A DNA stretch of 38,168 nucleotides from Symploca sp. SIO1C2. GTDB lineage: Bacteria > Cyanobacteriota > Cyanobacteriia > Cyanobacteriales > Coleofasciculaceae. Under the pieces are notes generated by a model that did not search any database, was not told where the DNA came from, and saw only the letters and a program-made list of their open reading frames with translations. Shown piece after piece: positions 16,138-34,100 of this stretch. The stretch lies in assembly GCA_010672925.1 (NCBI GenBank), contig JAAHFP010000039.1, positions 1-38,168 on the forward strand. The letters run 5' to 3'. Positions within the stretch are counted from its first letter, which is position 1; every line of letters begins with the position of its first letter. Both the position numbers and the translations under genes were made by a program.

Positions 16138-17043
16138 ATGCCAGATTTTGCCCCAGCGGTCACTAACCTACCTATATTTTACACTAAAGCCGACATGGTA
16201 ACTGGTTCTACGGTCGATTTTTTTATCCAATTTTGGGGCGTTAGAGATAAAATTTCGTCTCCAGGAAAAGATACCATCCGCTATGGAGGCAATACCTCCT
16301 GTGTGGAGATGCGCCTTGGCAAGAAATGTCTAATTTTTGATGGTGGTACTGGTTTACGAGTATTAGGTAATAAATTACTCTCGCAGATGCCAGTAGAGGC
16401 TCACATCTTTTTTACCAATTGCCATTGGGATAACATTCAAGGCTTTCCCTTTTTTACCCCTGCCTTTATTCCAGGTAATTGTTTTCATATCTACGGAGCA
16501 ACTGCATCTAATGGTTCATCTATGGAACAGCGGCTTGCCTGCCAGATGCAACCACCGACTTTTCCGGTTCCAATTCAAATTATGCAGTCGGAACTACAAT
16601 TCTACAATCTGACTTCTGGCGAGAAAGTGTCACTGGATGATGTGACAGTTGAGATCGTTTCTCTCAACTCTCTACAAGGTTCAGTAGGTTACAAAGTCAG
16701 CTGGCGGGGTTACTCTGTCGTTTACGCCACTGCCCACTCATTTAACCATAAATACCTTGATGACAAATTGCTGTGCTTAGCACATCAAGCTGATTTACTA
16801 ATTTTGGATGCTCCCTATGTAATCTCAGCTGATGAAACTCTAAACTCTGATGTGCTACATTGGCAAGATGACATCTGGCAGACTGGTATAACAACAGCTA
16901 AAGCGGCTGCGGTTAAGCAAGTTGTTATCTCTCGCTACAATCCAGACTATGATGATGATTTTCTTGATAAGATGGAAGCAAAGATTCAGTCAGTTTATCC
17001 TAACTACTTACTGGCTCGTGAAGGGATGATTATGAGAATTTAG
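16138..17043 (+). CDS. Metallo-beta-lactamase-fold protein with degenerate metal motif
   Basis: The 301-aa protein has the fold and landmarks of the phosphorylcholine-esterase/PhnP-like MBL branch: [31 protein letters not shown], then the region where HxHxDH should be, followed by IQGFPFF. That motif here reads TNCHWDN (Asn94, His96, Asp98, Asn99), so two usual metal ligands are Asn. The later strand [11 protein letters not shown] also differs from the usual metal-binding Asp/His pattern. I infer a catalytically altered or inactive MBL domain retained as a binding or sensory protein. A downstream in-frame start (Met at codon 20) is possible. Confidence 0.82.
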
Positions 17044-17091
17044 AATTGGGAATTGGGAATTGGGAATTGGGAATTGGGAATTGGGAATTGT
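17042..17091. repeat. Heptameric tandem repeat (GAATTGG)n
   Basis: Immediately after the stop of the MBL-fold gene are about seven perfect head-to-tail copies of the 7-nt unit GAATTGG. This is the short tandemly repeated repetitive (STRR) sequence type typical of filamentous cyanobacteria. The copy number is likely variable. It is not CRISPR, as there are no spacers. Confidence 0.92.
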
Positions 17092-17210
17092 TGAATAATA
17101 TCAAGTTTGGATAAACAGATATATATAATTCCTTTCTACTTTGCGACCTTCTTCCTTACTTTCTGCGCTCTGTCTTCTGCCTGAGGAAAGTAAAATTAGT
17201 TTGCTTACTT

Positions 17211-18179
17211 TTATTTTTTAGACAGACAGTTATTTAGTGTTTGTTGCAAAAAAAGTAGGTCAAGCTTACGTCCAATCAACACCAGTTGAGTTTTAGGAGT
17301 TTTTGTCCACTCACTTTCCCCAATTGTGAATCGCTTGCCACTGAGTTGAAATAAGTGACAATTTGGGCTTTCAGCAAACCAAAGAACACCTTTGGCTCGA
17401 AACACATTATCCGGTAGTCGGTATTCGAGGAAATGTTGAAATTTTTCCGTGGCAAACGGGCGATTGCTCTGAAACGACATCGACATAAACCCATCGTTTA
17501 CCAAATGAGCTGATTCTCTTGAATGAGGAGCGCTCAGCACTTTCTGGGAAGAACCTGACTCAGCAAAATTAACATCTAAAATTAGCGATAGTGGAACTCT
17601 ACCATACTCACATCGCAGAATGTTTGCTCCTTGTTTAATAGTACGAGCATGAGTTTCTATAGTCTTTAGCTCTGTCTCAGTAACCAAATCAATTTTATTG
17701 AGCAAAATAATGTCTCCATAAAGGAGTTGCCGATTTGCTGCTTCACTATTGAATGCTTCAGACATAAATGTTTCTGCATCCACAACCGTTAAAATTGCAT
17801 CCAACTGAGTCAGGTCTAGCAAATCTGCCCCTAAAAAAGTCAGTGCAATTGGTAATGGATCAGCCACACCTGTGGTTTCAACAATCAGATAGTCAATCTG
17901 TTCTTGCCGTTCTATTACTCGATACACTGCATCTGCTAGATTGTCATTAATCGTACAGCAGATACAGCCATTCGTTAGTTCAATCATGTCCTCTTCAACA
18001 GTAGTCAAGAACTGACTGTCAATGTTGATATCGCCAAACTCGTTGACTAAAACAGCAACTTTATAATTGTCAAAATTTTGCAGGATGTAATTCAATAATG
18101 TTGTTTTACCACTACCTAGAAACCCTGTAATGATAGTTACAGGTAGTCTGTCAGATAAAGTGGTAAGAGTGTCTAACAT
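17211..18179 (-). CDS. CobW/COG0523 family GTPase (putative zinc metallochaperone), short form
   Basis: The 322-aa P-loop GTPase belongs to the G3E/COG0523 family. Visible motifs are Walker A GFLGSGKTTLLNYIL (about residues 19-33), EFGDINIDSQ, the metal-binding NGCICCTIND (CxCC), ETTGVADPLP and the guanine-specificity NKIDL. The C-terminal CobW_C domain contains FRAKGVLWFAESPNCHLFQLSG. The His-rich linker seen in its paralogue at 19016 is absent; only a short SAPHSRESAH stretch is present. It lies downstream of folE in a three-gene minus-strand operon. Delivery of zinc to a client such as FolE is an inference from context. Confidence 0.9.
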   Translation of the reverse strand: MLDTLTTLSDRLPVTIITGFLGSGKTTLLNYILQNFDNYKVAVLVNEFGDINIDSQFLTTVEEDMIELTNGCICCTINDNLADAVYRVIERQEQIDYLIVETTGVADPLPIALTFLGADLLDLTQLDAILTVVDAETFMSEAFNSEAANRQLLYGDIILLNKIDLVTETELKTIETHARTIKQGANILRCEYGRVPLSLILDVNFAESGSSQKVLSAPHSRESAHLVNDGFMSMSFQSNRPFATEKFQHFLEYRLPDNVFRAKGVLWFAESPNCHLFQLSGKRFTIGESEWTKTPKTQLVLIGRKLDLLFLQQTLNNCLSKK

Positions 18180-18267
18180 AAATTAAGCTCGGAACTGAGC
18201 AATTGAACGGCAAAAAAAGAGGCAATGGTGGAATAGAAAACCATTACCTCGCTTGTGAGGAAAAAAA

Positions 18268-18936
18268 TTAATGGAAGGATGGTCTGTGACGGATCAAGTC
18301 CATAAATTCCTGACGAGTTTTGGCATCGTCGGCAAATACGCCTTGCATTGAACTTGTCACTGTCCAAGAACCAGGTTTTTGTACACCCCGCATCACCATA
18401 CACATATGAGTAGCTTCAATAACTACGGCAACTCCTTGCGGTTTAAGCAATCCCTGAATAGCATCAGCAATTTGTGCAGTAAGTCGTTCCTGTACTTGCA
18501 AGCGACGAGCATACATTTCACAAATTCGGGCAATTTTGGATAAGCCAATCACCTTTCCATTAGGAATATAAGCAACATGAGCACGTCCCAAAATCGGTAG
18601 GATGTGATGCTCACAGGAGCTAAACAAATCAATGTCGCGCACTAATACTATTTCTTTGGCATCTTCATGGAAAACAGCCCCATTGAGCAACTCGTCTAGG
18701 GATTGTTGGTAGCCAGAGGTCAGGAACTTCAAGGCTTTGACTACCCGCTTAGGGGTATCACGAAGCCCTTCGCGATCAGGGTCTTCACCCATGCCTAATA
18801 GCAATGTGCGAACCGCTTGCCGCATTTCTTCTTCAGAAACAGGAGACTTAGCTTGAGTGCTAATGGTTTGCTTGCGAATCTCGTCAGTTGAAATAGGTAA
18901 GGATAAGGTCATGAATGAATTGGAGTAAGATAACAA
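18268..18936 (-). CDS. folE: GTP cyclohydrolase I (type IA)
   Basis: FolE converts GTP to 7,8-dihydroneopterin triphosphate, the first step of folate/pterin synthesis, using a catalytic Zn2+. The 222-aa sequence has the conserved [30 protein letters not shown] (Zn-ligand Cys and His), [23 protein letters not shown] and [15 protein letters not shown] (third Zn ligand Cys). All three zinc ligands are therefore present. Starts at 18936 or 18912 (MTLSLP) are both possible. It sits between two COG0523 genes with gaps of 79 and 88 bp, suggesting co-transcription from the promoter above 20116 and a link with zinc supply. Confidence 0.96.
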
Positions 18937-19015
18937 CCAGTCCTATGGTGTAGAGACACATGTTTTGAATGAGTCTCTACCTCCAGCAGACAGCAAGGCT
19001 ACTGAAAGCCTCTGA

Positions 19016-20116
19016 TTAAGCGAGACAATGCTTCAGCTTTTGTCGTAGGTTCTCTGCATTCAAATTGCGCCCAATAAACACAAGCTGGTTATTGGGTAAA
19101 GTTCGCCACTGTTCTGCTTGCATGTCAAAGCGTGGACCACTCAGTTGAAAGATGTGGCACAAATCGCTGTCAGCAAACCAAAGGATTCCTTTTGCCCGGA
19201 AGACTTCCTGGGGCAATTGTTCTTGCAGGAACGATTCAAACTTTTGAACATCAAAAGGGCGATCGCTCTCAAATGATATCGATACAAAGCCATCATTATC
19301 TAAGTGAGCGGAATGATGGTGGTGATGTTCGTGAGGATGATGGTCATGCTCATCATGGTGATGATGGTCATGCTCATCATGGTTATGGTTATGCTCATCA
19401 TGGTGATGATGGTCATGCTGAGATTGCTCGATCTCTTCCTGAACTAAATTAGCATAAGCTTCGGGGTTATTGTACTCCACATCCAAAATGAGTGGCAGTG
19501 ACACCTGTCCGTGTTGACTATGGAGAATTCTGGCATTTTTTTTCACGGTGCGGATGTAATCTTCCAGATACTGGATTTGATCTGGATTTGCCAGGTCGGT
19601 TTTATTCAAAATGGTGATATCGGCATAGGCAATTTGCTTGAGTGCTGCTTCGCTATCAAAGTGATCTGGGGTGAATGTTTCAGAGTCCACCACCGTGATG
19701 ATTGAATCTAGCCGAGTCATATCACGCAATTCTGTCCCCAAGAAGGTTATAATGATGGGTAATGGGTCAGCGACTCCAGTGGTTTCAATCACCATATAAT
19801 CAACAGGCTCATCCCGTTCTAAGACTCGGTAAACTGCGTCCACTAACCCATCATTGATGGTGCAGCAGATACAGCCATTACTCAGTTCCATCATGTCTTC
19901 ATCCATCGACACCAGTAACTGGCTATCAATGTTGATGTCGCCAAATTCATTCACTAAAATCGCGATCTTTACATCCTGACTATTGCTAAGAATATGATTG
20001 AGCAAAGTAGTTTTACCACTACCGAGAAAACCTGTAATGATAGTGACAGGCATTCCTCGTTTAGGAATGTTCAGAGTTGTTGGGTTGGAAAGAGTTACTG
20101 TGTCGGTCATATCCAA
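19016..20116 (-). CDS. CobW/COG0523 family GTPase with His-rich linker
   Basis: The 366-aa G3E GTPase has Walker A GFLGSGKTTLLNHIL (about residues 28-42), EFGDINIDSQ, the CxCC metal site NGCICCTIND, ETTGVADPLP and LNKTDL. Between the GTPase and CobW_C domains lies a ~40-residue segment dominated by His, Asp and Glu (from QHDHHHHDEHNHNHDEHD onward), a classic zinc-buffering linker. The C-terminal domain has FRAKGILWFADSDLCHIFQLSG. This is the first gene of the cobW-folE-cobW operon, with a Zur-box-like palindrome ~93 bp upstream. By family knowledge, Zur-linked COG0523 proteins act in zinc allocation under scarcity; the client here is inferred to be FolE. Confidence 0.93.
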   Translation of the reverse strand: MDMTDTVTLSNPTTLNIPKRGMPVTIITGFLGSGKTTLLNHILSNSQDVKIAILVNEFGDINIDSQLLVSMDEDMMELSNGCICCTINDGLVDAVYRVLERDEPVDYMVIETTGVADPLPIIITFLGTELRDMTRLDSIITVVDSETFTPDHFDSEAALKQIAYADITILNKTDLANPDQIQYLEDYIRTVKKNARILHSQHGQVSLPLILDVEYNNPEAYANLVQEEIEQSQHDHHHHDEHNHNHDEHDHHHHDEHDHHPHEHHHHHSAHLDNDGFVSISFESDRPFDVQKFESFLQEQLPQEVFRAKGILWFADSDLCHIFQLSGPRFDMQAEQWRTLPNNQLVFIGRNLNAENLRQKLKHCLA

Positions 20117-20208
20117 TTCCTGGTCTTCCGTACTTACTGTGCCAAACTGTTAGTTGAAATTTACAAAAAGCTTTTACTGACAAAAATATCTAGATTATTT
20201 ATTAAAAA

Positions 20209-20223
20209 CGATAATCATTATTA
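20209..20223 (-). promoter_or_regulatory. Zur-box-like palindrome upstream of cobW-folE-cobW
   Basis: CGATAATCATTATTA matches the cyanobacterial 7-1-7 Zur operator, recalled as TGATAATNATTATCA, at 12 of 14 specified positions. It is ~93 bp upstream of the His-rich COG0523 gene, a normal operator distance. No Zur gene is in the window. A Fur-type operator is the main alternative because Fur and Zur boxes overlap in sequence. Confidence 0.6.
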
Positions 20224-20388
20224 TATTACAAGCTCTTGGTCATTGTGAGACAGATTCTCTGCTCCACTCTCATACCTGCTGCATCTCTGTCCACGATTGT
20301 GAAAGAACTTTCCCCGCTGACCTGGTAAAAATAAACCTTTGTTGGCAGCATCGAGTGTAGAAGGCATTGCCGCTGTGTCCGCTGCCAC
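20221..20388 (-). other. Unidentified 56-codon open stretch (possible gene fragment)
   Basis: On the minus strand, a GTG at 20388 opens 55 codons ending in TAA at 20221, inside the Zur-like box. It includes AAMPSTLDAANKGLFLPGQ and RGKFFHNRGQ. The GKFFHN pattern faintly recalls the haem-ligand region of di-haem cytochrome c peroxidases (GKFFHDGRF), but the match is too short to name. An in-frame stop lies just upstream of the GTG. It is most likely a decayed fragment, like its neighbours. Confidence 0.25.
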
Positions 20389-20407
20389 GCAGTGTTATGT
20401 TGCGATT

Positions 20408-20635
20408 TTACTGGACTGGACTTAACTGTCCTAGCTCAACACTGACGGTATCAAAACGGTTATCACCTGGATGGTATGAGAGAATTTCCACGCCAATCGG
20501 TTCCCCAGTTGTGGAATCTTAAATCATGATAATGCCATCTCCAAGTTCAGTGCTAATTTGCTCTTTGCAAGGTGGTTGCTAGAATACTGTTAGCAATTTT
20601 GTTTCTGGTTCGTAGAAGACTTTTACCTGTACCAT
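20408..20635 (-). pseudogene. DUF2283 family gene with two in-frame stops
   Basis: The minus strand reads MVQVKVFYEPETKLLTVF, a TAG at codon 19 (where the family has Trp), QPPCKEQISTELGDGIIMI, a TAA at codon 39, then DSTTGEPIGVEILSYHPG and a normal stop at codon 76. The frame is maintained throughout, so only point mutations have broken it. DUF2283 proteins are ~70-aa and of unknown function, frequent near toxin-antitoxin and mobile loci. The ATG abuts the group II intron domain V relic. Confidence 0.75.
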
Positions 20636-20638
20636 GAG

Positions 20639-20671
20639 GAGCCGTATGAACGAAAGTCTCATGTACGGTTT
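20639..20671 (+). mobile_element. Group II intron domain V relic
   Basis: GAGCCGTATGAACGAAAG followed by TCTCATGTACGGTTT folds as a group II intron domain V. The lower helix is GAGCCGT/ACGGTTT with the catalytic AGC triad at positions 2-4. There is a two-nucleotide GT bulge on the 3' side, then an upper helix capped by a GAAA tetraloop. Its ~33-nt length is the family norm. No intron-encoded reverse transcriptase or domains I-IV are seen, so it is a 3' fragment. Confidence 0.72.
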
Positions 20672-20682
20672 TGAAGACGAGT

Positions 20683-20826
20683 ATAAAGCGGTGACGCTTA
20701 TGCTTAGTTTAACAAGTAACGAAGCGTGGAGATGTGTCCTCTACTTCGGTTGGTCGCAAGACAAGTCGTTGCAATAAACATCGCTGAAACTAGAATCCCC
20801 TGGCTTCTAGCCGTGGGGAGTGTCAA
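20683..20826 (+). mobile_element. Structured repeat, left copy (IS200/IS605-type right end / omega-RNA-like)
   Basis: This segment recurs in inverted orientation at 22548-22672. In order it holds a small hairpin AAGCG-GTGA-CGCTT, a second hairpin CGAAG...CTTCG around 20720-20750, and a terminal hairpin CCCCTGGCTTCTAGCCGTGGGG followed by AGTGTCAA. That terminal hairpin plus GTGTCAA resembles the right end of cyanobacterial IS200/IS605 elements, where the TnpB guide RNA is encoded. No tnpA or tnpB is present. The element ends inside a cobW fragment. Confidence 0.55.
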
Positions 20827-20828
20827 GC

Positions 20829-20942
20829 AATTCACTGTCTGCAAACCAAAGGATTACTTTTGCCCGGAAGACTTCCTGGAGCAATTGTTCTTGCATGAAA
20901 GATTCAAACTTGTGAACATTAAATAGGCACTCACTGCGATCG
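20829..20942 (-). pseudogene. cobW/COG0523 C-terminal fragment
   Basis: The minus strand encodes LFNVHKFESFMQEQLLQEVF then RAKVILWFADSEL, nearly the same as the C-terminal domain of the COG0523 protein encoded at 19016-20116 (nucleotide similarity to about 19157-19270). Nothing else of the gene is present. The fragment is cut on its left by the structured IS-like right end at 20826 and fades on the right near 20945. It is evidence of a former third COG0523 copy or a partial duplication. Confidence 0.8.
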
Positions 20943-21090
20943 AGTTTTCCCTGGTGCTAGCCGGAGGAGGACGCTGGCCATAACCTAAATGTTGATTCAG
21001 GCACTATGGCTGAACAGATTTCCTCACCTGCCATAGCTAAAATGACCACTCTATATGAGACAATAAGTATTATACTTAGTTCTCTCCACT

Positions 21091-21576
21091 ATGTCATCAC
21101 CCTTTACTGCCCGGACTTCAGTTGAAGCTGTCGAAGAAGGAATGCTCCTGGCTCCTAAGTTTGACGCTCATGGGCTCATCCCCGTTGTCACCACGGATGC
21201 TGCAACTGGCGAGGTGTTGATGCACGCCTACATGAATGAAGCCGCATTGCTGAAGACTCTGGAAACGGGTGAAGCTCACTACTACAGCCGCAGCCGTCAG
21301 CAGCTTTGGCACAAGGGAGCCACTAGTGGGCTGGTGCAGACTGTGCAGCAATTGCTTATTGACGACGACCAAGATTGTCTGTGGATGAAGGTTCGTGTAG
21401 CTGGTTCAGGGGCCAGTTGCCATGTGGGCTATCGCTCTTGCTTTTACCGCCAGATTTCTCTGGGCGGGGGCGATCTGACGGTAAATCGCCCCTTTGCCCT
21501 CACCTTTACGGAAACTACCAAGACTTTTAACCCCGTCGCCGTCTATGGGGATGCACCCAATCCAACTCAACTTTGA
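21091..21576 (+). CDS. hisI: Phosphoribosyl-AMP cyclohydrolase paralogue, zinc-ligand variant
   Basis: HisI opens the purine ring of phosphoribosyl-AMP in histidine synthesis and is normally a Zn/Mg enzyme. The 161-aa protein is a stand-alone HisI domain: FDAHGLIPVVTTD, MHAYMNEAALLKTLETGEAHYYSRSR, LWHKGATSG and CHVGYRSCFYRQ are all present. The family's first zinc-ligand Cys lies in DCDxD; here that motif is DDDQD (residues 91-95), with Asp92 in the Cys position and a new Cys at 96. Cys110 and Cys117 are kept. Its GC content is visibly higher than its neighbours' (58% in the one 60-nt line counted by hand). It precedes the CcmM-like gene by 15 bp, so the two are an operon. I infer an accessory HisI for low-zinc conditions. 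Confidence 0.88.
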   Translation: MSSPFTARTSVEAVEEGMLLAPKFDAHGLIPVVTTDAATGEVLMHAYMNEAALLKTLETGEAHYYSRSRQQLWHKGATSGLVQTVQQLLIDDDQDCLWMKVRVAGSGASCHVGYRSCFYRQISLGGGDLTVNRPFALTFTETTKTFNPVAVYGDAPNPTQL

Positions 21577-21591
21577 ACCGAGGACAATATC

Positions 21592-22527
21592 ATGCCGTTG
21601 CGTCATCAACCTGCCCCACCCACCCCCTGGGACCACGATCTGGATCGGCCTACCATTGCCGCATCTGCCTATGTCCATCCCCAGTGCAGTCTAATTGGGG
21701 ATGTGCAACTGGGCGAAAATGTAATCGTCGCCCCCAATACCTCCATTCGTGCAGACGAAGGGGCTCCCTTTTATATCGGTGCGAATACCAACATTCAGGA
21801 TGGGGTGGTCATCCATGGATTAGAGCAGGGACGAATCTTAGGGGACGACCAGCAAGCCTACTCAGTGTGGATTGGTCATGATACCTGCATTACCCATATG
21901 GCGTTGATCCACGGTCCGGCTTACGTTGGGAATGAGTGTTTTATTGGCTTTCGCTCGACGGTGTTTAATGCCCAGGTTGGTCACGGTTGCATTGTGATGA
22001 TGCACGCCTTGATTCAAGATGTGGAGATTCCTCCCGGTAAGTATGTGCCGTCGGGAGCGGTGATTACGACTCAGCAGGCAGCCAAGCGGCTGCCAGATGC
22101 TAACGATAGCGATCGCACTTTTTCCCACCACGTAGTCGAAATTAATCAAGCCTTACGGGCGGGGTATCTCTGTGCCAACGATATCGCCTGCGTCACTCCT
22201 TTAAAGAATCCGGTATCCAGTAATGGCTCTCGGTCTATGCCCCAAAATGGCAAAGCAACTCACCCTTTACAGGCAGACATTGTAGACACGATCCGACAAC
22301 AACTCCGCCAGGGTCACCACATTGGCCTGGAATTTGCCAATGCGCGACGATTCAAGGTTGGTTCCTGGCAGAGTGGCCTTACGATTACCAGTGCCGATGA
22401 AGCTCAGGTGCTAACCCAGCTGAAACAGTTCTTAGCCGATCACCCTGGCGACTACGTGCGATTGTTGAGCATTAACCCCAAGGCAAAACAGCGCCAGTTG
22501 GAGCGACTGATTCAGAAGCCAGAGTGA
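21592..22527 (+). CDS. Short CcmM-like gamma-carbonic anhydrase with one RuBisCO-SSU-like domain
   Basis: The first ~210 residues are a CcmM-type left-handed beta-helix. Zn ligands fall at His75, His102 and His107, and the redox-switch cysteines of the active form at Cys194 and Cys200, the same numbers I recall for Thermosynechococcus CcmM. After a linker (about 205-225) comes a single SSU-like domain (about 228-311) with [22 protein letters not shown] and [18 protein letters not shown]. Full CcmM has three to five such domains and 540-660 residues; this protein has 311 and ends at a normal stop. The SSUL cysteines seen in Synechococcus CcmM are absent (WQSG, LKQFL). CcmM organises RuBisCO in beta-carboxysomes; a one-domain form could cap or bind RuBisCO without cross-linking. 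Co-transcription with the HisI variant suggests a metal-stress role. Confidence 0.88.
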
Positions 22528-22547
22528 GCCTCGTATTGTCTGATAAT

Positions 22548-22672
22548 TTGACACTCCCCATGGCTAGAAGCCGGGGGATTTTAGTTTCAACGGTTTCTTA
22601 CTTCGACAGGTCTTGGGAGCAACCGAAGTAGAGGAAACATCTCCACCCTTCGTTTGTTAACTTGGCGATACA
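22548..22672 (-). mobile_element. Structured repeat, right copy (IS200/IS605-type right end / omega-RNA-like)
   Basis: This is the inverted partner of the element at 20683-20826. On the minus strand it carries TTAACAAACGAAG, the CGAAG...CTTCG hairpin, and a terminal hairpin with CCCCCGGCTTCTAGCC and GGGG, then AGTGTCAA. Differences from the left copy keep the stems paired. The GTGTCAA end points left, towards the CcmM-like gene stop 20 bp away. Thus the two ends face inward around the cobW fragment, hisI and the CcmM-like gene. There is no transposase. Confidence 0.55.
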
Positions 22673-22685
22673 GCGCTTCCCGCTG

Positions 22686-23040
22686 TTACGAGGTACAGTA
22701 AAAACGATGAGAAAAAAATTTATCCAATCTTGACAACTGATTCAAGAGTACCTCATTGCAGCGGTAACCGCTGTAATAACCAGGCGTAATCCCAAACATC
22801 TTCTTGAAATAGTGATTAAGATGGCTTTGGTCTGACATTCCAACTGCGATTGCTGTATTGGCAATTGACATTCCCTTGCGGAGACATTGCTTGGCTTTTC
22901 GCATCCGAATTTGATTTAAATATGTATAGGGTGGCATTCCTGTTGCTTGCCGGAAGATACGAATTAAGTAAGAAAGGTTGATGCTGGTAATTTGTACTAG
23001 CTGTTCTAAAGAGATAGAATAATTAAAATTATTGTGAAGG
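22686..23040 (-). pseudogene. AraC-family regulator, DNA-binding domain only (5'-truncated)
   Basis: The minus-strand frame encodes both helix-turn-helix motifs of an AraC C-terminal domain: INLAKEYLHNNFNYSISLEQ, SYLIRIFRQATGMPPYTYL, AKQCLRKGMSIANTAIAVG and SHLNHYFKKMFGITPGYY, then a 3' tail to TAA. The frame lacks any ATG before the second HTH and meets a TGA near 23070, inside the methyltransferase gene. The N-terminal effector-binding domain is therefore gone. A transcript from the methyltransferase gene might still produce the HTH domain, but it is most simply a pseudogene. A hairpin ACAGCG-GGAAG-CGCTGT follows the stop. Confidence 0.75.
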
Positions 23041-23050
23041 TATTCCTTCG

Positions 23051-24139
23051 CTAGGTTGATGCAAGTGCAAGATGTATGTGAAACTGTCCCTCAGTATCCC
23101 GCAACGATTCTAGAGGTTCCCATCCTGAATTGATAAGCATTGCTCGCATTTCTTCACAGCTCGGTTTAATCGAATTGGCAAGGACATAGTTCTCTCCTTC
23201 ATAAATTTTGATAACAGCTTCTCTATTAGTAAAACAGTCAGTTATCGTGAACTCCTGCGTTTCTAAAGCTGTAAATACATGCTCGACTGCACTACTCTGT
23301 TCGTTCCATTGAGGATTATATACAAAAGATTCAGGTTTAAAAGTATTTGCCCGCAAGTCTCTTTTAAGCTTAAACAAAATACTCAAGAAACATTCTCTAG
23401 CTTCTGGTGAGACGTACAAATTTATCATAGAGTTAACATCATCCTTTCGACTATCCATTAGAATGACTAGATAGTGTTGAGATTCTTTATTTTCTTGGGA
23501 AAAACCATTGGTACGATGCAACAGCTTAAGGTGATCCGCAACAAATTTATTTTCAATAAATGTCTGCCCAGGTAAGGAAGGAAGATTACCAAGAGTTGAT
23601 CCAGGATACCAAACAACGGAAACACCAGATTGAGGGTAGGGTAGAACCTTGCTGTGAAAATCAATTGCAATAGCCTGAACCTTCATATCCGGAAATTCGC
23701 GCTCAATGACTCTGCAAGCTTCCTCAGTGAAGGTAAGCTCTATGTCAACCGCAAAGTATGCTAAGGGATTCAGAACTCTCAGAGCTGGAATCGTGTTTCT
23801 CGTGACTGACCAATTTGGACCTGGACCAAGATCGAAAAAAGATGATTCCGCTCTAATATATTTTTTAACAACTGAAGCGAATTGTTTTAACAGGGGAGGC
23901 TGTTTCTGTGGAATAAAAGAAGTTGGAAGCTTTACATATCGCGCATAATTGATGCCACCTTCAACTGGGTCTCCAGGATATTGAGGCATGTCATATATAT
24001 AGCTGCTTAAGGCTCCTTTCGTCCTTTTTTCTGCATCTGCTTCAAACGCACTGACAACGGCATCAAAGTCCATACATAGAGATCGCCCTAGAAGTGTGGG
24101 ATTAAAATTCTCCGCTCTTTCAAACCTGAAGCTACTCAT
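23051..24139 (-). CDS. EgtD-like SAM-dependent methyltransferase (histidine-N-alpha-methyltransferase family)
   Basis: The 362-aa protein fits the EgtD/Methyltransf_33 family. The SAM-binding glycine motif is FFDLGPGPNWSVTRNT (about residues 100-115), the second acidic strand is YFAVDIELTFTEEAC, and the family hallmark PGSTLGNLPS follows VVWYPG. Classic members trimethylate histidine for ergothioneine; others tailor natural products, for example WelM-like enzymes in cyanobacterial indole alkaloid pathways. There is no EgtB partner here. It lies between AraC debris and the PKS-NRPS gene, on the same strand as the latter, so a tailoring role is plausible but not shown. The substrate is unknown. 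Confidence 0.75.
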   Translation of the reverse strand: MSSFRFERAENFNPTLLGRSLCMDFDAVVSAFEADAEKRTKGALSSYIYDMPQYPGDPVEGGINYARYVKLPTSFIPQKQPPLLKQFASVVKKYIRAESSFFDLGPGPNWSVTRNTIPALRVLNPLAYFAVDIELTFTEEACRVIEREFPDMKVQAIAIDFHSKVLPYPQSGVSVVWYPGSTLGNLPSLPGQTFIENKFVADHLKLLHRTNGFSQENKESQHYLVILMDSRKDDVNSMINLYVSPEARECFLSILFKLKRDLRANTFKPESFVYNPQWNEQSSAVEHVFTALETQEFTITDCFTNREAVIKIYEGENYVLANSIKPSCEEMRAMLINSGWEPLESLRDTEGQFHIHLALAST

Positions 24140-24395
24140 AATTTTTGGGCTTTAACTGTCTAAACATTTATTATATTCCATAATAAACTGTATCCCGGAG
24201 AAATGGATGGAAAAGAAGCGGAGGACTTGTGGGTTAATAATGCACCAGTGATTTTCCTGATCTTTCGAAGAAATTAATTGTATAGCTGGTATTTTATTTT
24301 CTTGCGAGTCCCTAATTCTTCTGCGATGCTGTGTTCTTGTTCTACGTAACATACCCAATAGTTATATTATCCAGAAATATACAGCAGTCCCCCCT

Positions 24396-24493
24396 GCAAT
24401 GAGGTACACCTGAATCAGTTATCAAAATTGGATAGATTTTTTCCTTGCCGTTTTTAATGTATCTCGTAACAGTGGGAAGTGCTGTATCAAAAG
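24396..24493 (+). pseudogene. Inverted second fragment of the AraC 3' end and its hairpin
   Basis: The plus strand here repeats the last ~25 codons and the 3' hairpin of the AraC remnant at 22667-22765 in opposite orientation: CNEVHLNQLSKLDRFF against CNEVLLNQLSRLDKFF. The final 39 nt (24450-24488) match 35 of 39. This copy has an extra in-frame TAA before the end. The hairpin after the stop keeps pairing through G-U wobbles (ACAGTG/TGCTGT). With its partner it forms an inverted repeat around the EgtD-like gene. Confidence 0.7.
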
Positions 24494-24498
24494 TGGAA

Positions 24499-24612
24499 AT
24501 GGAGACGATGGCCGATTTAGAAAAGGTGCAAACATCCAGATTAAGGGGCACGTTGGAGATTTATGAAGAGTATCCCGAAGCCGTGACAGAAGCAATTCAG
24601 AATTTTCTTTAG
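24499..24612 (+). other. Unidentified 37-codon open frame, probable fragment
   Basis: An ATG-initiated frame of 37 codons (METMADLEKVQTSRLRG, ending EAVTEAIQNFL) runs to a TAG. Its end looks like the C-terminal helix of a larger protein, so it may be a remnant. I do not recognise it. It follows directly on the inverted AraC fragment, and nothing in its upstream sequence suggests a promoter. Confidence 0.22.
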
Positions 24613-24674
24613 CACTAATGTTTAATAATTCCCCAGGCTGATTTTAGATTAAAATCCTTTTTCTGGACATAAGT

Positions 24675-24689
24675 CGATTATCATTATCA
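24675..24689 (+). promoter_or_regulatory. Zur-box-like palindrome upstream of a truncated cobW
   Basis: CGATTATCATTATCA matches the recalled cyanobacterial Zur operator TGATAATNATTATCA at 12 of 14 specified positions on the reverse strand. It ends 22 bp before the ATG of a broken COG0523 gene. The operator seems to have outlived its gene. It also lies ~500 bp beyond the 3' end of the PKS-NRPS gene. Confidence 0.58.
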
Positions 24690-24711
24690 AAAAGAGCTTA
24701 GGAATTAGATT

Positions 24712-24930
24712 ATGATAGCGACAACCACCAACACCGTTCCTGTCACTGTACTAACAGGTTATCTCGGTGCGGGTAAAACCACCCTCCTCAATCGCATCCT
24801 TACCTACGAACACGGCAAAAAAGTAGCAGTCATCGTTAACGAGTTTGGAGAAGTGGGTATTGATAATCAACTGGTGATTGATGCCGATGAAGAAATCTTT
24901 GAAATCTGGAGTTTAGAGAAAATATCCTGA
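24712..24930 (+). pseudogene. cobW/COG0523 N-terminal fragment (different subfamily)
   Basis: The 72-codon frame holds the GTPase start: [20 protein letters not shown] (Walker A), then [18 protein letters not shown], ending abruptly just before the expected CxCC metal motif. Its [10 protein letters not shown] signature differs from EFGDINIDSQ of the two intact copies, so it is a separate subfamily member rather than their duplicate. No continuation is found in any frame to 25187. The 260 nt that follow hold no convincing gene. Confidence 0.82.
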
Positions 24931-25187
24931 CTCCGAACAATCCTTAGTAGATGCAGCAACTATCTGACGGGGTGACAATTGTGGCTACAATGTAGATTTA
25001 ATCATTACCTACTCAGCATCAATCTCCTTCTCAATAAGCCTGTCAATAAAATTCCATCTTTGGGGAAGTCAATGGGGTCAAAAGCCAACTCTATAAAGGC
25101 TTCAGCCTGCTTGTCACCCCCTGAGGTGCATGAATCCAACGCAACACCAGTTTTATTATGAGTGATTATCCGAACTTGACATTATAT

Positions 25188-28100
25188 CTACATGTCATCT
25201 TGAGCATTGGAGTTTTCTGATTGATTGGTCTGGGCTTGTTCCAGAGATGTTTGGAGTTTTTCCGCTAGTATCTTGACATGAGGCTCAGTCATAATTGATA
25301 TATGAGTACCAGGAATGGTATGGATTTCCACCTCTGAATCAGAAAACTGATTCCAACCCCATGCTGGATCGTAAGATAAGTGATCATTTTCCTGTTCAGA
25401 ATTTACCTCTTGAGCACGGAACAGAGTAATTGAAGTCCCAGAAGTATTGTGTGGTAGGTAATCAATTTGAGCTTGAGTTCGGTAAATTTCTAATAAGCCA
25501 CGAACGAGTTTGATATCTGCTTTAGGAGGCAAAACGCCAACCATTTCTAACTGTTGCTTGAAATAGTGAATTTGTTGATCTGGTGTCAGAGAAGCTAGAG
25601 CCTGATTAGATATTTGTAGATTTTCTCCAACAAGTTCTTCAATTATCCCAGCAATGTCACATATCCACATGGCATTATCCCAATTAGAAAAATCCACTTT
25701 AGGATTGAGTTCAGGAATTGGTGCCGGGGTATCTAAAATCGCGACCAAAGCAACAGATTGTCTTTGAGCTTGTAACTGATTCGCCATTTCAAAAGCGACT
25801 TCACCTCCAAAAGAATGACCTCCCAAGAAGTAAGGACCTACTGGTTGAACTGTCTGAATTGCTTTAATATATTGATCAGCTATTTCTTCCATGGTCTCTA
25901 GGGGTTTCGTTTCACCATCAAGACCCTGTGCCTGTAGACCGTAGAAGGGTTGATTCCTTCCAAGATATCGTGCTAAATGGTGGAAGTAGAGAACATTTCC
26001 TCCAGCTCCTGCTACACAGAAAAAAGGTGGTAATGAACCGTTGGGTTGAATTGCTACCAAGGGAGACCAGAGTTTTGTAGATGAATCAGAACCAAGAACA
26101 ACCGCTAGTTGTTCGATGGTGGGACTTTGGAAAAGGGTTGCTAAAGGTAAATTGATTTGGAATTGTTGTTGAATTAAGGACATGAGACGGACAGCGATAA
26201 GAGAATGACCGCCCAGCTCAAAGAAGTCATCTTGTACTCCGACAGAGGTGAGATTCAAAACGTCTGACCAGATTTGAGTCAGTTGAAGTTCTATGGTTGT
26301 ACGTGGTGCGACATCAATGATTTTCGATGGGGATTTGGCGGTATCGGGTATGGGCAGTGCTTTGCGGTCAACTTTCCCGTTGGCTGTTAATGGTAAAGTC
26401 TCTAAGCTCAGACACTCATTTGGCACCATGTAAGAGGGCAACTTCTGTTTTAAATACTTGCGCATCTCCGTGGAAATCGACTTATAACCTCCTCCAGGTT
26501 GAGAAGCTTCCAAGGAGTTGATTAAATTATTCCCAATTAAACCTTGCTGGGGGACAACATAAGCCACAAGCTGATTATTATATGAATTGACTACTGCCTC
26601 TTTCACAGCAGGATGCTGTTTCAAGGCCCCTTCAACTTCTCCTAACTCAATGCGGTAACCATTGATTTTTACCTGAAAATCTTCCCTTCCCAAAAACTCA
26701 ATCTCACCTCCAGGTAAATACCGGCCTAAATCACCAGTTTTATACAATCTTTTTTGAGTTACCGGATGAGTAATAAAACTGTTTTTGGTTTTTTCTTCAT
26801 CCTGCCAGTATCCTTTGGCCAATCCTATACCGCCAATATACAGTTCTCCACTTACCCAAGTGGGAGTCGGTTGCATTGATTTATTGAGCACATAAAACCG
26901 TTGATTCTCCATGGGTTTACCGTAGGGAATGCTCTTCCAATCCGGTTCAACTTTTTCAATGGGATACAAAATAGACCAAATAGATGCTTCGGTCGCCCCT
27001 CCCAAACTAACAACTTGTATATTAGACCACAATAATTCAATTTGTGACGGTAAGTTCACAGGCAACCAATCCCCACTGAGCAAAGCTAATCGCAAATCAC
27101 CTACTTGTTTATCTGTCGTTCTTGACAATTGCTCTACTAGCATTTCCATCAAAACTGGAACCGTGTTCCAAAGGGTTACTTGATGAGATAAGATTAATTC
27201 TAACCAGTGGGCAGGGTCTTTTCTGTGACATGGTGCAGGCTTGGGAATTACAATGGCTCCACCGGCAGCCAAAATTCCAAAGATGTCGTAAACAGATAAG
27301 TCAAATTCCAGAGCTGATAATGCTAATACTCGGTCATCAACTCCCACCCCAAAGCGTTTGTTAATATCCAAAATGGTATTCACCGCTCCCTGGTGGTCAA
27401 TCATCACTCCCTTCGGTCTGCCTGTAGAGCCTGAGGTATAAATGACATAGGCTAAATCCTCGGTCGTTTGTACCGACTCAATTGGATTTGACTGTGCTGC
27501 TTTTAAATCTTCTTGCTTAAGAGATAAACACTCGATCCCTTCTGGTAAAGATAAGTTTTCCCCAAGTTGTGGTTGGGTAACAACCAGCCGCACTTGTCCT
27601 TGAGAGAGCAAATCCCATTGCCGTTCTTGAGGTAATTCTGGTGAGATGGGAAGATAAGCTGCTCCTGACATTAAGATTCCCAACACCGCTACTATTTGCT
27701 CCCAACCTTTCTCCATGATGACAGCTACTAAAGTATTAGGAGTTGCCCCCAATTGCCGCAATCCATGTCCTAAGCTATTAGCAAGTTCGTATAATTCCTG
27801 ATAGGTGAGGTTTTGTTCTGGTGTGATCACCGCAGGAGATTGAGAACGCACAGCCACTTGCTTCTGGAACAGACCGTGCAAAGTTTCCTGGCTTAGAGGG
27901 GTACTGGTATTGTTAACTGCTGACTGTTGAGCTAATTGAGTTGGAGGGATTAATTGAGGATGAGTTTCCTCCCAAGCTGGATCTGTGTTGGCTAGTTGTT
28001 GTAACCAATTGCAGTAGCTAGCAAACATATCTTCAATTAGACCTGCTGGGAACAGTTCTTCTACCACATCCCAGTTAAATACTAATGCTCCATCTTGCTC

Positions 28101-31100
28101 AGATATTTGATGATCTAACCACACTTGTGAAGTTTGAGTAATAACGTAAACTACCTCTCCCAACTGATTTAATGATCTATTCTCTATCAAGGAGTTGAAT
28201 CCTAGGGTGCTGGTAAAGACTACACCCATTGGTTGAGTACTACCACGCTGACGGCGTAATTCTCGTTGTACTTCTACTCCACTAACATAGTTGTAGTCCA
28301 AATCTTGCCACAGTTGCCGTTGCACTCTTTGAGCGCGAGTAGTAAATGAGTAGGCAACGCTGTTATCAACTTCTAGCAATGTGAGTGAGGTGAAGTCTCC
28401 CACCAATTGATTGACTTGGGGGTGTAGGGGGAAACGATTGAATAAGGTAAGATTGATGGTAAAGTTGGGACTTTTACTCCAGTAGTTTAGAATATCGGCA
28501 AAAGCTGCTAGCAACACGGTTGTTGGAGTAAGATTTGCTTTTGTGGCTCGCTGTTTTAATTGCTGCCATTGCTCGGGTTCGAGTTGAGCAGCATAGCGCT
28601 TAAACTGAGGTTTAGCGACCGAAGATGGGTGTTTGGCAAAAGGCAGTTCTGGTGCTGGTGGTAGATTACGGTTGAACCAATATTCCTCTGAAAGTTGATA
28701 TTGTGGTGTATCTTTGAGTAATAATTCTGCGAGTACATAGTCCCGGAAGGAAATTTCTAATGGTGGTAGTAAAATCTCCGGATTTTCATAGAGTTGTTGC
28801 CACTGTTTTCCGAGCAACATCGCACTCCAAGCATCACCGATTAAAGCATCAGAGCTCAAGTGTAGGCGGGTGTTTTCTCCATCTAATATTGTGGCGCGGA
28901 TTTTGAATAGAGGCCATTGGTCTGCTGGTAATACTTCGTGGGACATTTGTTCGCGAATTGCCTCTAGTTGCTCGGCTATTGCTGATGGTGATTGGGAGCG
29001 TAAGTCTAATACTTCTATTTCATAAGCAGGTACTTTCTCCAGAATCTCCTGTTCACCTGAAGCTAACATCACTGCTCTTAGCATGTAATGGTGTTCAATT
29101 AATTTCTGCCATGCTTGGTTAAACTGCGGCAGATTTAAGTCGGAGCAATCTAGTTCTATGTAACCATGAGTGGCAATATTACCGAGGTCAAAGTTCTGAT
29201 GGCGACCTAGCCAGTAGGCTTGTTGGATGCTTGTAAGGGGGAAGGGTTGATATTTTTTTTCTGGAGCGGGTACTATGTTTGGTAAAGTTATGGCTGATGC
29301 TTGCCCACAATTGCTAGTCCGCAATTGACCGATCTTCTGGTCTAATTGAGCTACGGTGGAGGATTCAAATAATTCCCTTAAGGGGATTTCTATTTCAAAA
29401 GTAACTCTGAGTCTGGAAATTAATTGGGTTGCTAGTAGGGAATGTCCTCCCAATTCAAAGAAGTTGTCGTGAATTCCAACATTTTGCACACTTAGAACCT
29501 CTGCGAAAATGTTGGCTATTATTTCTTCAGAAGGGGTGCGTGGCGCTACATATTCCTCAACTGATGTGAAAACCCTATCAGGTGCCGGTAGGGATTTGCG
29601 GTCTACTTTGCCATTTGGCGTTAAAGGCAGGGTTTCTAGGGTTATGAAGGCACTGGGCACCATGTAATTTGGTAGTTTGTGCTTGAGGAATTCTCTTACT
29701 TGCTTGGTAGTTAGTGATTCTTTCTGACTGACATAGTAGGCGACTGAGCATTTGTTGCCAGAAAGATCTTCTGTTGCAATTACTACGCTTTGTTGAATTT
29801 GGGGATGGGTGTTAAGTACTGCTTCGATTTCCCCTAATTCAATCCGGAAACCGCGTATTTTCACCTGATTATCAATGCGACCGAGCAACTCGATGTTACC
29901 ATCGGGTAAGTAACGAGCCAAATCCGCTGTTTTATATAATTTTGAATTGTTAAAGGGGTTGGTGATAAATTTCTCGGCAGTTAATTCCGGAAGGTTGAGA
30001 TAGCCCCTAGCAACTCCAGCACCGCCAATATGCAGTTCTCCAGGAACCCCAATCGGAACAGGTTGGAGATGGTTGTCAAGGATATAGACTTGGGTGTTAG
30101 CAAAGGAACGCCCAATGGGCACTAGCTTTTGTTGAGGTAAATCAAGTTCGGTATTTTGAAAATAGCAACTGTCGATGGTAGCTTCAGTTACGCCGTAGGA
30201 ATTAATCAGGCGTGTATCGGAACCGCACAAATTTTGGAGTTCAATATAATCTTTCCAATACCAGCTATCTGAACCTACCATTAGCAAGCGCATGAAGTTA
30301 AGGTTCTGTTCAGTTTTATGGAGATACTCAATTAAGTTCTTCACAACCGCAGGCACAAATTCAGCGCAATCAACCTCTTGTTCTGTCATTAGCTGATATA
30401 GTTTCTCTGATTCCAAAAGCCATTCCCTTGGGCAGAGAACTAATTTTCCTCCAAAACAAAGAGCACGAACTAGATCTCCTGAAAAGACATCAAAACAGAA
30501 ACTAGCCATTTGCAGATGACTTCTGGCTTTGGTCCGAAGCTGATATGCCTCCTCCCAAGCAGTGCAGGCATTAACCAGATTGCGATGCTCAACCGCTACT
30601 CCCTTGGGTTTCCCTGTGGAACCAGAGGTGTAAACAACATAAGCCAAGTTATCTGGGTTTAACCGAATAACTAAATTTTCCTGACTCATCGTTTCGATTG
30701 CTTGCCAGTCTGCATCGAAACAGATTACCTGGGCTTGATGTTTGGGCAGTGATTCGACCAACCCCTTCTGGGTCAAGAGCACTGACACCTGAGAATCTTT
30801 GAGAATATCAGCTAAGCGATCACTGGGATAGTTCGGGTCTAAAGGCAGATAAGCCCCACCTGCTTTGAGAATCCCCAACAGTCCCACAACCATCTCAATG
30901 GAGCGCTCCACACATATGCCCACCAGCACTTCTGGTCCCACAGCCAGAGTTTGCAGGTAATGGGCCAATTGATTAGCACGGGTGTTTAACTCCCGGTAGG
31001 TAAGTTGTTCGTCTTTAAAGACCACCGCTACAGCATCAGGTGTTCTCTCTACCTGCTCGGAGAATAACTGATGAATACATTTATCTTTTGGGTATTGTGT

Positions 31101-34100
31101 TGCAGTATCATTCCACTTGCTCAACAATTGATAGCGTTCGGACTCTGACAACAAATTCAAGGTTGTAACACTTTCTTGAGGATTTTCCACAATTGCTGAT
31201 AACAAGTTCTGGAAATGAGTTACCATCCGTTTAATGGTAGACCCATCAAATAAGTCCGTGTTGTAATGCCATATCCCCACCAATCCCATCTCTGTTTCCA
31301 TCATTGACACGAGCAAATCAAACTTAGCCATCGTACTGTGTTGATTGAACTGACTCACACTCAGACCTGGTAACTCTAATTTCCCCATTGGTGCATTCTG
31401 TAGAATAAACATCACCTGGAACAGAGTCGAATGACTCAAAGATCGTTGAGGCCGCAATGCTTCGAATAGCCGTTCAAACGGTACATCCTGATGTTCATAA
31501 GCGGTGAGTGCGGTTTCCCTGACTTGTTTGAGCAACTGAGAAAAACTGGGATTATCTTCAAAACGGGTTCTCAACACCAAGGTATTGACAAAGAACCCAA
31601 TCAGGGACTGGATTTCATGGCGATTGCGATTAGCTATGGGTGAACCAATTAATATATCTTTTTGTCCACTGTAACGATAGAGTAAGGTGGCGAACGCTGC
31701 CTGCAGGGTCATAAATAAGGTACTACCCAAGTTACGAGACAACTGTTGCAACTTCTCGGTTAATTCCGTGGTGAAACTAAAATTTTCACTACTACCTCGA
31801 TAACTCTGTACATGGGGACGAGGACGGTCTGTAGGTAGTTGTAATAATTCTGGAGCACCCAATAATGCTTCTTTCCAGTAATTGAGTTGGGTGTTTAGGA
31901 TTTCCTCACTTAACCATTGTCTTTGCCAAAGGGCAAAGTCAGCATATTGAATCGGTAATTGAGGTAACGGGGATGGTTTTCCTGCAGCAAAAGCTTGATA
32001 TAAACTTGATAGTTCTTGGATTAATATCCCCATTGACCAACCATCAAAGACTATGTGGTGGATCGTCACTGCTAACACATACTCACTGGTGTCTAGTTGC
32101 CATAATTTACACCGGATTAATGGTGCTACCTCTAGGTCAAATGGGGTTGTTGCTTCACGTTGTACTTCTTGTTGTAGGATAGCTTCCCGTTCTGGTTTTG
32201 GGTGTTGTTGTAGGTCTACTACATTGATCTTGATGGTGCTGTCGGGGTGAATTACTTGTATTGGTGTGCCATCGACCGTTGGGAAACTTGTTTGCAGTAC
32301 TTCATGACGATTGATTATTTCTGATAAGGTTTGTTCTAGGGCTAACAAATTTAGGTTACCGGTGAGTTGTAATGCACCATGCTCAATATAAGGAGCTTTT
32401 GACCCTTCAAGTTGGTCAATAAACCACAGTCGTTCTTGACTAAAAGATAGGGGGATTTTTTTGTCTCTAGGAATAGCTTTAATAGGGAATAGCTGATATT
32501 TGTTTTCTGGGGCGGGTATTAGAGAAATTTTCTCTTCTTCATCTTGCTCAACTCTTTGATAGCTATCAATTTGGGTCAGTTGCCCATTCACTTCAGTAGC
32601 CAAACTAACGATACTGATATCTTCTAGAAATTTGACTATGGGTACATCCACTCCCAAGTCAGTTTGAACACGATTCCGCAATTCCACAGCCATCATAGAA
32701 TCAAGTCCCATGGTGTTAAGATACTGTTGCACGTCAATTTGGGAAGCTGTCATACCCAGTACCTTTGCTACTTCAGTTTGAAGGTGAGAGACTAAACTAT
32801 TTTGGCGATCGCTTTCCTTTGCCCCCTCTAGTTTTTCTAAAAGTCCATAATGCTTTGGTTTTAATGTGGGCTGGGCTAAAGAAAATGCCTCCAATAAAGG
32901 TATTTTTATCCCTCCAGACAGTTGCTCCAAAAATTGAGACCAATTAATCGGCAACACACCAACTTGAGTAGCCTTTTGCCGCAACAACTTCGCCAAAGCT
33001 TGTAATCCTTGCTCTGGAGTTATAGGTGTAATCCCCTGAGCCTTCATCCTACTGAGGTGTTGACTCTGCAAGCGGCTTGCCATTCCCCCTTCAGCCCAAG
33101 GTCCCCAGTTAATACTCAACCCCGGTAAACCGATTCCCTGTCGATAATGGGCTAAAGCATCCATAAAAGCATTGGCTGCTGCATAGTTTCCTTGACTTGG
33201 TGAACCCAGCAGTGATGCAACAGATGAAAAGCACACAAAGAAATCCAGGGGTAAGTGCTTTGAAAGCTGGTGTAAATTCCAACTGCCTGCTACCTTGGGA
33301 AGCATAACTTTCTCAAATCGCTCCCAACTTTGCTGCATGAGTAATCCATCATCCAGTACCCCTGCTGCATGAATGATTCCCCTGAGTGACGGCATGGAGC
33401 TCTGGCTCTCTGCCAGCAGCCGTTCGACATCCTCACTCTGACCAACATCTCCTGGGACTATCTTGACATTTATCCCCTTGTGGTGCATCTGGTCTAACAC
33501 TTTTTGGGCTTCCTGATTAGGTTCTTGTCGTGAAGTGAGTACCAAATGTTGTGCTCCCTTCTCTACCAACCATTGAGCCACTTCTAGTCCCAGTGTCCCC
33601 AGTCCACCAGTAATCAGGTAGCTTCCTGTCTCTTTCACAGGTAGAGTGTCCTCACCTGTATGATCCCAAAATTGCTTTAGCCTGACTCCGTAGCGTTGAG
33701 CTTGGCGGTAAGCAAGTTGGTTCTCACTATCTGGCCTTAGCATTTCCTTGACCAAGACCTGAGTATTACTGATCACCCCCTCATTAAGATCCAGATCAAG
33801 CAATCGGCAATTCAGCTGAGGATACTCCAGAGTAATCACTCGACCCAGTCCCCAGAGCGGTGATTGTTGCACCTGGACAAAGTTAGTTTGTTTCTCTACA
33901 GCCTGAGCTCCTTGTGTAATCAGCCAAAGATCAGGACTAGACTGACTTTCTGCCAGTTGATTCAGAGCTTTTACTAAATGCAATACACTGCCACATCCTA
34001 GCTGTTGCGATTCCTGCAGGCTGGACACTGTCAGCTCAACTGGCTCCTTACTATCCAGACTCCATAGATGCACTACTCCTTGCCAGGTTTGGCCATCCGC

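Follow-up and report, generated by a model that had tools for sequence, protein, structure and literature searches.

A probable, partly decayed zinc-economy island with a HisI variant and a single-SSUL CcmM in the cyanobacterium Symploca sp. SIO1C2

Gene content of the island

The region under study spans ~8 kb in the cyanobacterium Symploca sp. SIO1C2 and lies within a 38,168-nucleotide stretch of DNA (contig JAAHFP010000039.1, our contig C179) that is hereafter called the window; the source draft genome comprises 8.67 Mb and is 97.9% complete. The region holds COG0523 genes (two intact, two broken), a folE gene with its ligands retained, a hisI paralogue, whose product we call HisIv, and a gene for a gamma-carbonic anhydrase (gamma-CA) with one Rubisco-small-subunit-like (SSUL) domain, a CcmM paralogue that we designate mini-CcmM (Table 1). 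This gene set had been recognized in a preliminary description made from the sequence letters, and our searches bear it out: the two intact and two broken COG0523 genes lie where they had been placed, as judged by PF02492/PF07683 and by the identity of the remnant, and folE, the hisI paralogue and the gamma-CA were recovered within 8 kb with TIGR00063, NF000768 and the RuBisCO_small domain, respectively. Both hisI and ccmM are plus-strand genes, and 15 bases separate the stop codon of the former from the start codon of the latter.

The preliminary description had proposed a look for canonical copies elsewhere in the genome, and these were found: 1) on contig C112, a second phosphoribosyl-AMP (PR-AMP) cyclohydrolase (PRA-CH) in a 216-aa frame with DCDSD, which is a canonical hisIE; 2) on C124, a second folE; and 3) on C183, a second ccmM with three SSUL matches. 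The window genes are therefore extra copies, and their reading as housekeeping copies is ruled out. On the minus strand, the COG0523 gene with a His-rich stretch, folE and the other intact COG0523 gene are arranged head to tail behind the predicted Zur box at 20203-20223, with the last of them likely being the final gene of a COG0523-folE-COG0523 operon. Scored against the ZigA equivalog NF038288, the COG0523 proteins reached 206.8 and 203.5 bits vs. a cut-off of 600, and on these profile scores they are members of CobW/COG0523, not ZigA; four more CobW-domain genes lie outside the window. The motifs CEHH and HMCM, which we take to be metal-ligand motifs of FolE, are present in both folE copies, and the truncated COG0523 gene has a longer homologue in the sister genome G173 (L092, 11544-12506).

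Table 1. Features of the island, with positions in the window.
Feature	Position	Strand	Evidence
COG0523 (CobW-type) GTPase gene, intact	17211-18179	-	PF02492 2.6e-55, PF07683 5.1e-22
folE (GTP cyclohydrolase IA), second copy	18268-18936	-	TIGR00063, 271 bits vs. 181.6 cut-off
COG0523 GTPase gene with His-rich stretch, intact	19016-20116	-	PF02492 1.4e-55, PF07683; 86% identity to sister G173
Predicted Zur box 5' of the COG0523 gene at 19016-20116	20203-20223		1 mismatch to the Zur box published for cyanobacteria (PMC9337993)
Group II intron domain V remnant	20637-20713	+	RF00029, 46 bits, gathering 40
Mobile-element-like end	20718-20826	+	Inverted repeat of 22548-22654; two pieces, 84% and 91%
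COG0523 gene remnant, 108 nt	20828-20935	-	87% identity to 19160-19267 (within the 19016 gene)
Eroded operator position 5' of hisI	21058-21078		5 mismatches to published 21-mer
hisI variant (HisIv)	21091-21576	+	NF000768, 154.8 bits vs. 126; DDDQD replaces DCDxD; CHxGxxSC kept
Single-SSUL CcmM paralogue (mini-CcmM), gamma-CA plus one RbcS-like domain	21592-22527	+	PF00101, hexapeptide repeats; NF053794, 500 bits
Second mobile-element-like end, inverted	22548-22654	-	Inverted repeat of 20718-20826
Weak Zur-like palindrome before COG0523 fragment	24675-24689		15-mer, 2 mismatches; no match to published 21-mer at 3 mismatches or fewer
Truncated COG0523 gene, 72 aa, N-terminal	24712-24930	+	PF02492 positions 1-57 only

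The HisI variant and the single-SSUL CcmM

The zinc site of PRA-CH sits between two subunits. As described in PMC8102479, the catalytic zinc is bound by the Cys of the DCD motif together with both Cys of CHxGxxSC, the residues of this three-Cys site are universally conserved, and the Asp triad binds a further metal. HisIv (161 aa) lies above the cut-offs of the HisI family profiles (PF01502, 104.6 vs. 27; NF000768, Table 1), keeps the Asp triad, CHxGxxSC and the WHKG motif, and retains two Cys and a His; no HisE domain was found in its 161 residues. Its metal loop aligned without gaps to 1zps and to HisIE structures, with Asp at the position of their DCD Cys. The same replacement, with the other two Cys retained, was found in 79/79 named homologues kept from our scan (the best 79 of 326 confirmed loci, some of which share a genome), all of which carry the motifs DDD[Q/R]D[C/T] and CHVGY[R/H]SC. 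Two sets of HisIv loci were compared, 46 cyanobacterial ones and 33 called non-cyanobacterial, the latter including L178, titled uncultured cyanobacterium. The new Cys of DDDQDC as a general substitute ligand is ruled out by the Thr found there in 3/79.

Apart from cyanobacteria, HisIv hosts include bacteria titled Planctomycetes, Verrucomicrobia, Gammaproteobacteria and others. PRA-CH copies were counted in 33 genomes (13 cyanobacterial, 20 other); the motif script applied to the fetched PRA-CH loci missed 2 of 30 (L197, L200). All 13 cyanobacterial genomes with HisIv have at least two PRA-CH, one of which is DCD (canonical HisIE); 12/20 non-cyanobacterial genomes yielded a single PRA-CH match, and most of these are titled as metagenome-assembled genomes, with the Pan216 (G323) chromosome titled complete. 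With the Asp form as sole PRA-CH match in these 12 genomes, we surmise that it probably works. DDD and DCD rows were split by one branch (SH-aLRT 98) when 103 rows were placed in a quick tree with long branches flagged. The DDD form is thus a subfamily, probably an active one, which in cyanobacteria comes on top of the canonical enzyme. In our two overlapping samples, HisIv was found at an identity of at least 66% in 17/291 genomes of the order (two as broken or partial copies) and at E 1e-50 or better in 18/388 genomes of the class, one copy, at 98% identity, being in the same genus (G242:C1063:1131-1613).

The mini-CcmM has 311 aa and a single PF00101 stretch, with 0 to 2 residues following the matched region in the minis listed, and its score against NF053794 (CcmM) is below the cut-off of 550 bits. 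It falls short of the three to five SSUL domains with which CcmM of beta-carboxysomes is described (PMC7059596). In a tree to which full-length CcmM from other families were added, and from which the fragmentary minis L110 and L115 and near-identical copies were left out, the minis formed one side of a branch (24 vs. 35 full CcmM rows, support 100/100); an earlier tree had given 31 vs. 21 rows (100/99). The window mini-CcmM groups with copies of the sister genomes and of Leptolyngbya and Adonisia, apart from the canonical CcmM of its own genome, which suggests an old duplication with transfer. Recent truncation of the local ccmM is ruled out by the identity of 59% between the two and by the separate clade, which spans several families. 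The metal ligands of a gamma-CA are in place, as H75, H102 and H107, along with C194 and C200, are found in 24/24 minis, as in nearly all full CcmM. Within the draft genome, no member of the beta-carbonic anhydrase family PF00484 was found, so in this strain the carboxysome may depend on a CcmM-type gamma-CA for its carbonic anhydrase.

Single-SSUL CcmM was found in 10/291 genomes of the order sample and in at least 17/388 of the class sample, two of the latter with interrupted frames (G474, G611). The hisIv gene lies immediately 5' of mini-CcmM in 14/29 loci (some genomes being counted twice), among them the window and, as divergent cases, G465 and G522. Of the 46 named cyanobacterial HisIv loci, 13 contain a mini-CcmM. 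Around mini-CcmM in G131 and in four g21 genomes, there were no further matches to the reference gene set.

Predicted Zur boxes and zinc-type neighbors

Boxes were searched with a 15-mer, TGATAATNATTATCA, which we take to be a Zur-like pattern. The second pattern was the 21-mer published as the cyanobacterial Zur box (PMC9337993). The two Zur-like palindromes of the preliminary description do exist as matches to the 15-mer with 2 mismatches or fewer (two sites in the window vs. 0.30 expected, with two reached in 4/100 shuffles), but only the one at 20203-20223 fits the published box. With up to 3 mismatches allowed and 0.42 sites expected, the 21-mer recovered in the window just this site (1 mismatch) and 19332-19352 (3 mismatches, in the coding region of a COG0523 gene); at the place in G173 that corresponds to 24675-24689, the best 15-mer match has 3 mismatches. 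Judged by these matches, the box at 20203-20223 is good and that at 24675-24689 weak. Neither of them lies in the promoter of hisI-ccmM itself, a point missed in the preliminary description. In a sister genome (L104), the operator position of hisIv has 4 mismatches to the 21-mer and its sequence differs from that of the window. At the place of the Zur-like box of relatives, the window carries a different palindrome, TAAGTATTATACTTA (21064-21078), which may be due to chance or may represent a changed operator.

Within 300 bp upstream of hisIv, the 15-mer was found with 2 mismatches or fewer in 38/46 cyanobacterial loci and with 1 or fewer in 22/46, mostly at a similar distance from the start, vs. 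0.65% and 0/920, respectively, in first-order resamplings; the 21-mer was present in the same 46 loci with 2 mismatches or fewer in 31 and exactly in 5. Canonical hisIE loci had a box in 0/13; over the 420 bp before the first aligned codon, the best match differed from the 15-mer at 4 positions and from the 21-mer at 5. Among hisIv-ccmM operons, which come partly from the same genomes as the 46 loci, 10/14 have the 21-mer in the promoter with 2 mismatches or fewer (6 exact, and two of the ten, L233 and L241, with an interrupted gene), the other four being those of the window, L104, L242 and L243. Leptolyngbya sp. PCC 7375 is an example of a strain in which the box is retained. Solo mini-CcmM genes in four genomes of one genus (G009, G097, G171, G194) have an upstream 15-mer with 2 mismatches (21-mer, 3-4). 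In the Symploca genome, the 21-mer occurs at five sites with 1 mismatch or none, preceding metH (a perfect match, G000:C1:482578-482598, L282), a gene for a zinc-binding protein of znuA/aztC type located behind hemB, the COG0523 gene of the window, a 283-aa frame with no NCBIfam match, and one other place. Three Fur-family genes are present in this genome. Of these, L264, a candidate Zur, shares 73% identity with the Fur-family neighbor of HisIv in G220, which itself passes no equivalog cut-off.

Genes near HisIv in relatives comprise thrS, hemB, znuABC-type, Fur-family, pyrC, cysS, metE, folE and COG0523 genes. Representatives of thrS, hemB, pyrC, metE and metH are over the curated cut-off; znu-type, Fur-family, FeoB-like, flavoprotein and partial cysS representatives match below it, and a phosphoesterase-like neighbor, named by eye, has no NCBIfam match. 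With COG0523, thrS, folE, hemB, cysS, metE, pyrC, znu and fur taken as the zinc set, at least one such gene was present in the fetched flank of 30/46 cyanobacterial HisIv loci vs. 0/13 canonical hisIE loci from 13 HisIv-bearing genomes (Fisher 1.7e-5; mean locus lengths 15.2 and 17.6 kb), in a test that is not blind, since the set was picked from families seen near HisIv. A FeoB-like GTPase (21/46) and a flavoprotein (14/46) also recur near cyanobacterial hisIv (e.g. L048 5389-7026, L055 2759-4477). Short HisI of the DCD type are likewise found near zinc genes, with L062 and L034 by COG0523 (L034 also by thrS) and L039, L040 and L045 by cysS.

Interpretation and relation to known systems

Given the gene identities, the second copies, the ligand change, the clade structure, the neighbors and the boxes in relatives, we consider it likely that a cyanobacterial zinc-economy island is preserved here in a state of partial decay, with the hisIv-ccmM(mini) operon as its core. 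The preliminary description had proposed that the locus supplies zinc-sparing or zinc-prioritized versions of enzymes, an idea that draws its support mainly from relatives: extra copies, zinc-type neighbors, boxes and the change of a HisI ligand. The Zur control, metal use and carboxysome targeting that we propose for hisIv-ccmM might proceed as follows: 1) when zinc is short, Zur would leave the box upstream of hisIv-ccmM (in relatives) and of COG0523 genes; 2) COG0523 GTPases would then steer scarce metal to chosen enzymes; 3) HisIv, with Asp for a Cys of the catalytic zinc, would sustain its step of the histidine pathway with weaker-bound zinc or a metal other than zinc; and 4) mini-CcmM, whose metal might be iron or cobalt, would furnish the Rubisco condensate or carboxysome with carbonic anhydrase. 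In its strongest form, which we offer tentatively and hold to be possible rather than probable, one Zur-controlled operon would let some cyanobacteria respond to zinc starvation by remodeling the histidine pathway and the carboxysome alike. Its products would be a naturally zinc-independent PR-AMP cyclohydrolase, from a subfamily that provides the sole such enzyme of some bacteria, planctomycetes among them, and a dedicated single-SSUL CcmM by which a gamma-CA free of zinc is delivered to Rubisco. Carbonic anhydrase is a major zinc use in phototrophs, and a conserved operon in which predicted zinc control extends to a special CcmM would tie zinc supply to the make-up of the carboxysome. HisIv, as a widespread subfamily lacking one Cys of the three-Cys zinc site, also offers a natural case in which to ask whether this site is required for PR-AMP cyclohydrolase.

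A number of observations weigh against such a zinc-economy reading. 1) Upstream of hisI-ccmM in the window, nothing comes within 4 mismatches of the 21-mer, and the best 15-mer match has 4 mismatches; with the box eroded, control in this genome may be weakened or changed, and we surmise that regulation of the operon by zinc has probably been lost or altered here, with the frames still intact. 2) Non-cyanobacterial HisIv loci (L150-L182, one of them titled uncultured cyanobacterium) showed a box in 0/32, the best match having 5 mismatches. 3) In the Symploca genome, the 21-mer with 2 mismatches or fewer occurs at 12 sites vs. 19 in a reversed control, so this looser genome-wide count carries no weight. 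4) No zinc-set gene was found at 16/46 cyanobacterial HisIv loci, and several HisIv loci share a genome and are not fully independent. 5) The hisIv-ccmM pair is not obligatory, because the sister genome G173 has hisIv reduced to its last 30 codons (L092, G173:C379, 8901-8990) and has kept mini-CcmM beside a COG0523 gene, with a 1-mismatch 15-mer between the two. 6) Both folE and mini-CcmM retain their metal ligands, so the zinc-site change is in HisI only. 7) Zur-linked HisI of proteobacteria retain zinc ligands (PMC2770081); zinc regulation thus needs no zinc-free enzyme. 8) The window hisI-ccmM pair is enclosed by inverted, mobile-element-like ends of ~107 bp, next to a group II intron domain V, all of which the preliminary description had missed.

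The alternative that fares best is that HisIv, FolE and mini-CcmM are still zinc enzymes and that extra copies, together with COG0523 chaperones, raise their amount and metallation under zinc shortage. Recognizing that FolE and mini-CcmM retain their ligands, that HisIv keeps two Cys, His and three Asp, that its Cys2Asp site may still bind zinc, and that a copy-number explanation for ligand-retaining paralogues has been proposed by Haas et al. (PMC2770081), we regard this alternative as quite plausible, if short of probable. Set against it are the invariance of the Asp at the ligand position in 79/79 HisIv and the direct upstream boxes, which go with the Asp form (38/46) and were seen in 0/12 DCD-type loci near zinc genes, although the frame of one of these (L042) is as long as that of a HisIE, and some of the rest may lie inside operons.

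Two other explanations appear unlikely to us. The first is that mini-CcmM alters carboxysome assembly, with fewer Rubisco links per chain, rather than the supply of carbonic anhydrase, the zinc link being incidental; one SSUL instead of three to five speaks in its favor (PMC7059596), but the active-site ligands and C194/C200 are invariant in 24/24 minis, and both the box and the gene pair are conserved. The second, to which we give a similarly low probability, is that the hisI-ccmM segment of this genome is carried along passively by mobile-element traffic and is in decay. The inverted ends that flank it, which we take to be IS200/IS605-like, the intron and COG0523 remnants around the pair, the eroded box and the loss of hisIv in G173 are consistent with it, but neither the hisI nor the ccmM frame is broken, their identities to the G242 copies being 98% and 94%, and mini-CcmM is intact in G173 at 96% identity. 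An Rfam search over 16500-25400 returned only the group II intron, with no match at the inverted ends themselves. A further inverted repeat of 109 nt, 84% complementary (22667-22775 and 24380-24488), surrounds an EgtD-like methyltransferase family gene (23051-24139) and may represent additional mobile-element ends. Also seen in the surroundings were a short frame with an AraC-type helix-turn-helix (22686-22937), which is probably a piece of a gene for a regulator, tandem short repeats of GGGAATT type (17043-17095) just past a metallo-beta-lactamase-like gene (16138-17043), and, directly adjoining the island, large hybrid polyketide/nonribosomal peptide synthase genes (25188-38168): one is a frame of 4063 aa, named by eye, and a second is represented by its end, which carries KR and carrier domains.

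The least probable explanation takes the boxes for Fur boxes and the island for a response to iron supply. In its favor, classical Fur boxes known from other bacteria are similar to the 7-1-7 pattern, and the FeoB-like gene is the commonest HisIv neighbor in our set. We deem this very unlikely, given that the published cyanobacterial Zur pattern is exact in 6/14 hisIv-ccmM operons, unlike the Anabaena FurA consensus, which reads AAATAAATTCTCAATAAAT (PMC4005646), that the motif precedes a znuA/aztC-type gene behind hemB in the same genome, and that the neighbors are zinc-enzyme paralogues.

Within the open-licence PMC literature searched, mostly as titles and starts of abstracts, we found no description of a hisIv-ccmM operon, in keeping with the preliminary description, to which a HisI plus one-SSUL CcmM operon was not known; nor did we find one of an Asp-type HisI, of a single-SSUL CcmM clade or of a link between zinc supply and carboxysome make-up. 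HisI and carbonic anhydrase are absent from PMC10957091. The individual parts have known counterparts. HisIv shares PF01502, the Asp triad, CHxGxxSC and WHKG with canonical HisI/HisIE and differs by Asp for the DCD Cys, by the HisE domain not found in it and by its separate branch. Likewise, mini-CcmM has in common with CcmM of beta-carboxysomes the gamma-CA domain, the metal ligands, C194/C200 and SSUL, but has one of the latter and not three to five (PMC7059596). Clusters of COG0523 with Zur boxes and with HisI and gamma-CA paralogues are known in gamma- and beta-proteobacteria (Haas et al. 2009, PMC2770081); these elements are common to the island, but in that paper the enzyme paralogues are proteobacterial, the HisI zinc ligands are kept and no CcmM appears in the text, and it is the short DCD-type HisI near zinc genes that are like its ligand-retaining paralogues. 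For Anabaena sp. PCC 7120, the Zur table entry in PMC6103462 names no hisI or ccmM, adding 'several more predicted', and the regulon includes COG0523, hemB2, thrS2 and znuABC, the same kinds of genes that surround HisIv in the relatives of Symploca sp. SIO1C2.

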